Source of the DNA: Candidatus Poribacteria bacterium
Lineage (GTDB): Bacteria; Poribacteria; WGA-4E; PCPOR2b
Direction: 5' to 3'
Assembly: GCA_028819845.1 (NCBI GenBank)
Contig: JAPPKS010000034.1
Coordinates: forward strand, 112,217-176,216
Length of the DNA: 64,000 bases
How positions within the stretch are numbered: position 1 is the first letter of the stretch; the number at the start of each line of letters is the position of its first letter. This document shows positions 54,983-63,629 of the stretch, one piece after another. The notes below the pieces were generated by a model. That model was not told the origin of the DNA and made no database searches. It saw only the letters and a program-made list of their open reading frames with translations. The position numbers and the translations under genes were made by a program.

Positions 54983-56056
54983 CTAATCCGGCAATTGATA
55001 GACGGTTGTTTCAGGATGGTAACGTCCCCATGCAAACCAATAGATATTCATCGCCGGAATTCGGTCAAGAGTCTTACCTTTGAGTTTTCCTTCGGTAGCC
55101 TTGCCAGCGACCAAATTCCAGCGCGTGCCAGTCGTGGTATCTATGGCAACATTTCCGCCGCACGGCTCAAAAGTGAGAATCTTCCCTTCCAGTGCACGCA
55201 TAAACACAGCGGCCGCGCCGGACACATTGTCGTGAAACGCTAAGACCGGCACACCGTCAATGACATCGTTTATAACGGATGTCCTGTCAAACGCTGTAAG
55301 AGGATAGGCACTGAAACGGGCATTGACTCGCACACCGATAACGACTGATTTATTCGGTAAACGGTTATCGTTATATTGTGTAGAACTTATTCCTGCATTG
55401 GGTCCAGCTCGATATCTTGCATAACTATCGAACTTCGGCTCTTCGATTTTCAGATTCGGATGACGGGAATCGAACTGAACAGAGAGCACTTTTGTGTTCG
55501 GGTAGTTTAATCGCCACTCTTTCCAAGTGATTTGCGGCATTGCAGCCATCATTGACAACTGTTTTCCTTTGAGTTGCCCTGTTACTGCTTTCCCCGTGAT
55601 ATGTGACCAAAGGGAACGCGTTTGATGGTCATACATCAGAAGTGCATCGTAAAGCAGTTTGCCTGAGACTCCAAAGGTATACGTTTTTCCTTCGAGTTCG
55701 CGGCTATACACGATTGCCGTTCGACAGAGTGGTCACCAGGTAATCGCTACTTCCACGCCGCCAACAACATCGTTGACAATTTCGTGCCCATTAAGCAGAT
55801 AGATAGAGTAGGCATGGCTTTCACCGTTGAAACTGACTCCAATCATCGGTGAATCGTCTCGCAATTTTGCCTCGCGGGCAGAGACAAACCGCGGATCCTT
55901 GATTGCGGGGATTGCATCGAAGGGCAATACTGTGATGATGTGGTCTTCTGAGAATCTTTTGCCCGCATTAGGCGCGCCGATTTTCTCCGAAGCTGACACA
56001 TTACTAACCAGTAAAATTAACACGGCGGCTGATAATATAATGGATTGTCTAACCAC
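54983..56056 (-). CDS. DUF3179-family protein with in-frame UGA, probable selenoprotein
   Basis: A 357-residue exported protein if UGA is read as selenocysteine. The GTG at 56054-56056, after AAAGGA, gives VVRQSIILSAAVLILLVSN as a signal peptide. Then comes the DUF3179 core: DPRFVSAREAKL, HEIVNDVVGGVEVAITW, [UGA], PLCRTAIVYSRELEGKTYTF and GVSGKLLYDALLMYDHQTRS. The family norm is TYCPLCGTA, so UGA (codon 108) stands for the first Cys of a CxxC pair. A second similar half follows (SVVIGVRVNARFSAYPLTAF). The frame is open for about 250 codons after the UGA. It could instead be a nonsense mutation, but the placement argues against that. Function of DUF3179 unknown. Confidence 0.85.
55698..55724 (-). 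promoter_or_regulatory. SECIS-like stem-loop downstream of the DUF3179 UGA
   Basis: The 27 bases fold by eye as TCG, bulge AA, CGGC, A-A mismatch, AT, a five-base loop CGTGT, then AT, GCCG and CGA. The loop starts 20 nt after the UGA and has G as its second base. Both fit the general bacterial SECIS pattern. Stem length is short; pairing was not computed. Confidence 0.6.
55733..55735 (-). other. In-frame UGA, probable selenocysteine codon (Sec108 of DUF3179 protein)
   Basis: TGG-TGA-CCA-CTC-TGT on the minus strand gives W-U-P-L-C. The upstream and downstream reading frames are the same frame, and both encode DUF3179 sequence. Confidence 0.8.
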
Positions 56057-62418: not shown

Positions 62419-63318
62419 CTAATCGTCAATGAACGTTTTGATGCGATCTAGCAAAACACCAGCGTTTGCCTTAATTTCTTCGTTCTTAGAATCGCTCAAT
62501 GTCTCAAGAAGTTCGATTGCCTGTTGATACTTTTTTTGAAGTGCATAGGTTAAGCTCAGGTGATACTTAGCCTGCTCATAAACTGTGCTTTGTGCGTACT
62601 TTTCGATGACCGTTTGAAAGTGCGTCTCCGCCTTTCGATAAAAATCTTCCGCGTTGTCTTCATCAGCATGCGTTGCGTAATGTAATCCTAGGTTGAGGTG
62701 GATATCCGGCAACAAACCGGTTTTGTTCATTGGATCTAGTTTAAGAACTTTATCGGCGATAGGTTTGCCATTCTCAATGTCCCCCCGCTTGACATAGATG
62801 ATTGCAATTTCAGCATTAATCATCGGGGCATCTGGATTTTCTTTGATTTCAATTTTTAGTTGCTGAAACCGTTCTTCCTCCTTGAGAGTCCCCTCCATAA
62901 GCACGGCAAATTCCTTTGCATCTCTGTAACCAACAATAACACTGATTGGATTCCCTTCAGTGTCAACGAATGCAATTGTTGGGACTGCGCCTGATCCATC
63001 TCCGTATGTCCTGTAAGCTTCAGCGTGCTCATCGCTTGACTCCGGATTTAACTTCAAGGTAACGAATTTTTTTGATAGTTCAACAACTTTTGAATCACTA
63101 AACGTAGTGGCATCCAGCCGCTTACAGGAACCTCACCATTCTGTGTAAAAGTCCATCATAATGGGTTTACCTGTTTCTTGGGCTTCCATCATTCCCTTCT
63201 CAATTGACTTCTCCCACTTAATCTCGGTTGATGCAAAGGCCAGCGGATAGGCAGCGGCAGTAAACATCAGGATAACCAACACCGATAGCTGATTCCGCTT
63301 CCAAGTACGATTGAACAT
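62419..63318 (-). CDS. Exported thioredoxin-fold/TPR protein with in-frame UGA, probable selenoprotein
   Basis: A 299-residue protein if UGA is selenocysteine. Start: ATG at 63318 after AAAGGAGAA. A signal peptide (SVLVILMFTAAAYPLAFAS) is followed by a thioredoxin-like domain: IEKGMMEAQETGKPIMMDFYTEW, [UGA at codon 62], GSCKRLDATTFSDSKVVELS, with the cis-Pro in GAVPTIAFVDTEG. The CxxC of thioredoxins (WCGxC) thus reads U-G-S-C. The second half is TPR-like, with ETHFQTVIEKYAQS and LSLTYALQKKYQQAIELLE. Such proteins act as periplasmic thiol-disulfide reductases. UGA as nonsense mutation is the alternative. Confidence 0.85.
63104..63125 (-). promoter_or_regulatory. SECIS-like stem-loop downstream of the thioredoxin UGA
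   Basis: By eye: GT, bulged A, AG, a C-A mismatch, GGC, five-base loop TGGAT, then GCC, A, CT and AC. The loop begins 16 nt after the UGA, and its second base is G. This matches the general bacterial SECIS pattern and parallels the element at 55698-55724. Confidence 0.6.
63133..63135 (-). other. In-frame UGA, probable selenocysteine codon (Sec62 of thioredoxin-fold protein)
   Basis: GAA-TGG-TGA-GGT-TCC-TGT on the minus strand gives E-W-U-G-S-C, in the place of the thioredoxin active site WCGxC. The reading frame continues unbroken for 237 codons. Confidence 0.8.
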
Positions 63319-63629
63319 CTGTATTCTCCTTTGATATTGGAATTGGTACTTATAGAATTAAACGTATCATTATTTACCTAGTCCACACGATGTGAGCAAA
63401 TTTCCAAGTTTGGCGTCGGTACGAGAAACTAGTTCCATATTGAATTTATCGCAAATTCGACACGACGAGATTTGAAAACTATTGGGTTTAGTCTGCATTC
63501 TACTTAGGTGCAAAATTGGCTAATTGCTGGAGGCTAATCTGGGATCTGGGTACGGATTGAATAAACCCTTAAACCTCCTCTGATACCTCATAATCACGTT
63601 TGGAATTCCAATTGCCTGTGGTCAATTGG
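63319..63629. other. Intergenic region, no gene seen
   Basis: About 310 AT-rich bases between the zinc-ribbon protein and the thioredoxin-like gene. Nothing beyond a ribosome-binding site at its left end was recognised. Confidence 0.5.

Follow-up and report, generated by a model that had tools for sequence, protein, structure and literature searches.

A DUF3179 gene in the genome of an uncultured Candidatus Poribacteria bacterium carries an in-frame UGA that is very probably decoded as selenocysteine (Sec), judging by its orthologues, by the Sec machinery of the genome and by a hairpin just downstream. Confidence that the gene is both decoded in this way and a member of DUF3179 is a little lower, and still high. 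Across the genomes compared, nearly all Poribacteria with the family have the Sec form, which is also common among Acidobacteriota. This breadth provides a usable lead to the role of DUF3179.

A DUF3179 gene with a single in-frame UGA

The window, meaning the whole stretch of 64,000 nucleotides that was analysed, contains the gene with the following features:

54983..56056, minus strand: putative DUF3179 selenoprotein gene of 357 codons plus stop, with a single in-frame TGA and a full-length PF11376 match
55733..55735, minus strand: predicted Sec codon UGA, residue 108 (W-U-P-L-C), matched by TGA at the corresponding position of orthologues from 69 Poribacteria genomes
55984..56056, minus strand: probable export signal as read from the translation, consisting of MVRQ, the hydrophobic SIILSAAVLILLVSNV and SASE

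The gene reads along the minus strand; its GTG start at 56056 is preceded by the Shine-Dalgarno-like AAAAGGAAAAAAAT, and its stop is at 54983. A previous sequence-only reading had located the gene correctly and had left its strand unstated; the plus strand of 54983-56056 is non-coding. That reading had described an otherwise complete DUF3179 gene split by one in-frame TGA, and the translation agrees. A single internal stop, TGA 55735-55733, interrupts the frame at residue 108 of 357, and the minus-strand context ...AITW-U-PLCRTAIVY... contains the residue order W-U-P-L-C that had been proposed. With the UGA read through, the PF11376 match spans both sides in one frame (E 8e-80, profile positions 2-292 of 292, 268.8 bits against a curated cut-off of 27). 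A plain gene caller reports two separate proteins, as had been anticipated, namely a 242-aa piece from GTG 55711 to 54983 and, upstream, an ORF that ends at 55733. Searching NCBIfam with the window protein returned no family.

Coding constraint on the gene persists past the UGA. Amino-acid identity between the window protein and its relatives is 0.66 before the UGA and 0.61 after it, with third-base identities of 0.41 and 0.40, respectively. The UGA is aligned with the Cys of homologues, and no other lesions were seen in the window copy. The in-frame TGA is not a chance event, because the same site carries TGA in 69 genomes of the phylum and coding is conserved beyond it. The product is probably exported, given the look of its N-terminus. 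Some orthologues in the alignment have lipobox-like ends (LLGC, LFGC).

Selenocysteine machinery and distribution of UGA forms

The genes selA, selB and selD and a tRNA-Sec all occur in the genome that carries the window. The tRNA-Sec gene (77.5 bits, anticodon tca) is located on contig C21 together with selB and selA, and selD on contig C10 itself has a UGA in CAGUASK. Together with the TGA found at the same site in close relatives, this upholds the earlier proposal of a selenocysteine member of DUF3179. Neither of the two situations named beforehand as contrary to the proposal was encountered. The genome does not lack selB and tRNA-Sec, and close relatives carry TGA rather than TGT or TGC, next to a window copy free of further damage.

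DUF3179 was found in 75 of 85 Poribacteria genomes and tRNA-Sec in 73 of the 85. Counted from the listed rows, 69 of the 75 genomes have a DUF3179 copy with one in-frame TGA. The search for TGA at the aligned position in homologues, which the sequence-only reading had recommended, recovered an identical site in every such Poribacteria copy read (66 with WUPLC and 3 with the divergent WUHLC). Divergent DUF3179 proteins from other Poribacteria families (L102, L103 and L104) have the motif W-U-H-L-C-H-N-G and their own covarying hairpin. The Poribacteria orthologues L087-L100 contain a long insert between the repeats described below; their profile match is split at ~195 and their open frames reach 380-470 aa. 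One Poribacteria genome without DUF3179 (G011) has two tRNA-Sec genes of equal score, on contigs C41 and C76.

A covarying hairpin downstream of the UGA

55701..55719, minus strand: putative SECIS hairpin CGGCAAU-CGUGU-AUAGCCG, a stem of 7 positions with one A·A mismatch and with covariation in the family

The hairpin starts 13 nt after the UGA, and its 5-nt loop CGUGU starts 20 nt after the UGA. The consensus in Poribacteria is CGGCUAU-CGUGU-AUAGYCG, and in members from Acidobacteriota as well as in the WUHLC members the hairpin recurs in an unchanged register, built from other bases. Two-sided compensatory changes were detected at 5 of the 7 stem pairs among 22 distinct stems of Poribacteria and Acidobacteriota. 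In this set, 91.6% of stem cells are paired versus 72.2% in shuffled data, 26 stem cells are two-sided versus 8.0 in shuffles, and stem covariation is 0.536 versus 0.211. None of 500 shuffles reached the observed pairing or covariation, a count that is not a probability since the rows are related and each distinct stem is represented by one sequence. A control sliding the register, which keeps relatedness, lowered pairing from 91.6% to at most 43.5%, with every slid register collapsing. A second group of Acidobacteriota (UTLCHTGLVW) has another hairpin, CCACACC-GGUCU-GGUGUGG, closer to the UGA. An Rfam scan of the window and the hairpin region produced no match to a SECIS family and only a chance sRNA match.

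Synonymous variation is lowest in the hairpin. By codon fixation across 55 sequences, the hairpin codons ACG, GCT, ATC, GTG and TAT take the first five places among 148 conserved columns, and synonymous fixation of the stem-loop codons yields a Mann-Whitney p of 2e-5. The corresponding residues T112, A113, I114, V115 and Y116, all within the hairpin, are given in a numbering that is one below the 357-residue count. In synonymous-codon shuffles with codon usage taken from the rest of the genes rather than from the hairpin region, Sec members of both phyla exceed the shuffles (0 of 200 sets as high), whereas Cys members show no excess. A version using codon usage of the hairpin region itself was underpowered and was set aside. 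Of the 68 Sec forms, 66 retain Val116, the codon of which contributes bases to the loop, as opposed to 24 of the 56 Cys forms (p 3e-12); at this residue the protein sequence seems to be under constraint from the SECIS loop.

The window hairpin was compared with the bacterial SECIS loop model of PMC13188914 and a stem criterion of at most -7.5 kcal/mol. The loop is alike in being 5 nt long, with G in second position, 20 nt from the UGA. The stem differs, as the 19-nt hairpin alone has just -4.0 kcal/mol because of the one mismatch, compared with -7.9 kcal/mol for the consensus hairpin. In 54 of 55 sequences the codon is GCT; the window copy has GCA, so that one U-A pair becomes A·A. Over 44 nt the energy is -7.1 kcal/mol, no better than shuffles (z +0.66), and the synonymous-shuffle p for the window copy alone is 0.13. 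We read the mismatch as a tolerated or unfixed change.

Exchange of selenocysteine and cysteine

The Sec/Cys label requires 7 changes on a tree of 124 sequences built with the trait column masked, and at least 5 of these are forced by supported branches; the direction of each change depends on where the root is placed. The 124 rows were chosen for having the motif, leaving out a few sequences without a recognisable one (e.g. L101 and L265). A Cys clade (CTLCHTG) is nested among the Sec forms of Acidobacteriota, and selA was found in 0 of its 10 genomes versus 13 of 14 Sec-form Acidobacteriota genomes tested (Fisher p 5.6e-6, which overstates independence because the genomes are related). The nested clade offers a clear example of Sec/Cys exchange going along with the presence or absence of the pathway. 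Of 80 Acidobacteriota genomes, 40 have a UGA copy, and 35 of these give a strong tRNA-Sec match (at least 55 bits); the figure is 25 for the 40 in which no UGA copy is listed (p 0.019). Genomes with a Cys form and Sec machinery presumably retained the machinery for other proteins. As many Cys-form genomes do so, only the direction from UGA copy to machinery is expected to be strict. A lone Cys sequence from Acidobacteria (L168) sits beside Sec forms and keeps a near-hairpin in a genome without a tRNA-Sec match. Together with L255-L263, it belongs to Cys forms in or beside Sec clades from genomes without tRNA-Sec or selA, some having hairpin-like remnants. These sequences are candidate Sec-to-Cys reversions.

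With its A·A mismatch and weak folding, the window copy might have arisen by a recent nonsense mutation or be in the process of losing Sec decoding. Yet UGA at the same site is shared throughout the order and is therefore not a fresh mutation, the rest of the frame is unbroken and stays conserved beyond the UGA, the Sec machinery of the genome is complete, and the hairpin keeps its loop, its spacing and six of the seven positions in its stem. Such a decay is thus very unlikely. The UGA might instead be read as Trp or Cys, or by plain readthrough, in the absence of selenium. Nothing specific favors such a decoding, while the UGA falls exactly at the Cys site of the family, tracks selA and tRNA-Sec, and is accompanied by the covarying hairpin, which makes a selenium-free decoding extremely improbable. 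Decoding as Sec remains the preferred explanation. SelB with Sec-tRNA would read UGA108 as selenocysteine, directed by the hairpin.

Residue 108 and its conserved surroundings

Position 108 is Cys or Sec in 124 of 124 rows, which were selected for the motif. The second motif position is Cys in 53 of 56 Cys forms and in 46 of 68 Sec forms, with Ala, Thr, Val, Ser or Asp in the other 22 of 68; the window protein itself has UxxC. The role given earlier to a conserved CxxC, as pointing to thiol redox or metal chemistry, is thus overstated: the first position is always kept, and conservation of both positions, as expected of a CxxC redox pair, is not seen across the family. Because the second position is variable, a strict CxxC redox pair is ruled out as the general mechanism. 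With a dispensable second Cys, one selenol would do the work and a resolving Cys would be optional. Nearly invariant neighbors of Sec108 are His91, Asp96, Asp143, Trp150 and Gly160. About seven exchanges of Sec and Cys in a family without an assigned function point to residue 108 as the site of chemistry. The function becomes directly testable, since residue 108 is Cys or Sec throughout the motif-bearing set while its CxxC partner is sometimes lost.

Domain architecture and proposed function

55478..55864, minus strand: domain (repeat) 1, carrying Sec108 and an HE[IV]xND motif, with a single-domain model at pLDDT 92.3
54998..55351, minus strand: domain (repeat) 2, of common ancestry with repeat 1 (hhalign), without the Sec/Cys site

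The two repeats match each other in hhalign with a probability of 99.8 (E 3.8e-28, 35% identity), and the structure models are confident, with a pLDDT of 87 for the whole protein. Profile comparison shows that the DUF3179 protein is composed of tandem copies of one beta-rich domain, the second of which lost the reactive site. A PDB sequence search for a relative gave no match at E up to 1. A viral structure library contained one significant match, an uncharacterized Indivirus protein (E 3e-8, TM 0.40-0.57), which is functionally uninformative.

We suggest an exported protein of two such domains with the reactive position in the first copy only. Sec108 would most likely act there as the sole catalytic selenol in redox chemistry of the thiol or peroxide type, an assignment made with middling confidence. 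Sec108 could pair with Cys111 where present (46 of 68 Sec forms) and would not need it. His91, Asp96, Asp143, Trp150 and Gly160 might complete the active site, given their conservation. The exchange of Sec and Cys taken by itself leaves the chances of a redox function about evenly balanced. The gene neighborhood across DUF3179 loci shows no co-directional partner and no conserved redox partner adjoining. A convergent short-chain dehydrogenase is encoded downstream on the opposite strand in most loci (44 loci, L111-L165) and is not found in the window.

The coherent Foldseek matches of both models among solved structures are Rieske [2Fe-2S] ferredoxins and NirD (probability up to 1.00), with TM 0.50-0.59 for the Sec-bearing domain. 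DUF3179 might hence be a Rieske-type fold minus its cluster, in which the Cys that was the first cluster ligand would now serve as a free catalytic Cys or Sec. However, the Foldseek E-values of 0.017 and 0.045 render the likeness not significant, the C-x-H ... C-x-x-H cluster ligands are absent from the DUF3179 alignment, and eight Rieske domains encoded in the genome matched DUF3179 at a probability below 1% in profile comparison, by which homology at the profile level was rejected. In its predicted fold DUF3179 is similar to Rieske ferredoxins but lacks the cluster ligands, with homology unproven, and descent from a Rieske-type fold is possible, if rather unlikely. The fuller proposal of a cluster-less Rieske-fold class, with a single catalytic Cys or Sec at the position of the first cluster Cys and no resolving Cys, is more doubtful. 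If true, DUF3179 would be a selenoenzyme built on a scaffold from which selenium chemistry is not known. Residue 108 could alternatively serve as a ligand for a soft metal (Hg, Cu or Cd) or iron in an exported metal-binding or detoxification protein rather than a redox enzyme. The second Cys and a neighboring His are frequent (UxxCH in many forms), and the selenoprotein families tabulated in PMC9312934 and PMC13188914 include the metal-handling MerT and P-type ATPase. Against this, 22 of 68 Sec forms have Ala, Thr, Val, Ser or Asp at the second ligand position, and the conserved neighbors of DUF3179 include no recognized metal-resistance gene, so that a metal-binding role seems improbable. Redox catalysis by Sec108 is the function we favor.

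Relation to known selenoproteins

Sec DUF3179 as such is already on record. Whether Sec forms had been recorded was left undecided by the sequence-only reading, and the selenoprotein tables of PMC9312934 and PMC13188914 list the family as pfam11376 with the motif UxxC/T, crediting Zhang and Gladyshev 2007 and the delta symbiont of Olavius algarvensis. According to the table description, which is the basis of comparison here rather than sequence, the 2007 entry is one representative of the same Pfam family, with Sec in a UxxC motif of the same kind. Beyond that entry, the present set covers nearly all Poribacteria with the family and frequent cases in Acidobacteriota, the variants UxxA, UxxV, UxxS and UxxD, and a covarying hairpin. 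The breadth, the motif variants with a dispensable second Cys, the hairpin covariation and the tandem-domain architecture are additions, and no open-access record was found for the first three. The open-access passages that mention the family give no function for it, and the open-access papers found to pair Poribacteria with selenocysteine do not mention DUF3179. As a selenoprotein family, DUF3179 is much more widely distributed in the genomes compared than the tables would imply, and many DUF3179 genes are therefore probably annotated in truncated form.

Thiol oxidoreductases of the UxxC type (thioredoxin-like, DsbG-like) share with DUF3179 the replacement of the N-terminal Cys of CxxC by Sec. 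They differ by their thioredoxin fold, whereas DUF3179 is predicted to be a tandem beta-rich domain with a dispensable second Cys. The window also encodes a second likely selenoprotein at 62422-63357 on the minus strand, with TGA at 63135-63133. This thioredoxin-like protein (Thioredoxin_7, E 2.7e-18) has the motif E-W-U-G-S-C and a TPR tail, and represents a known kind of selenoprotein.
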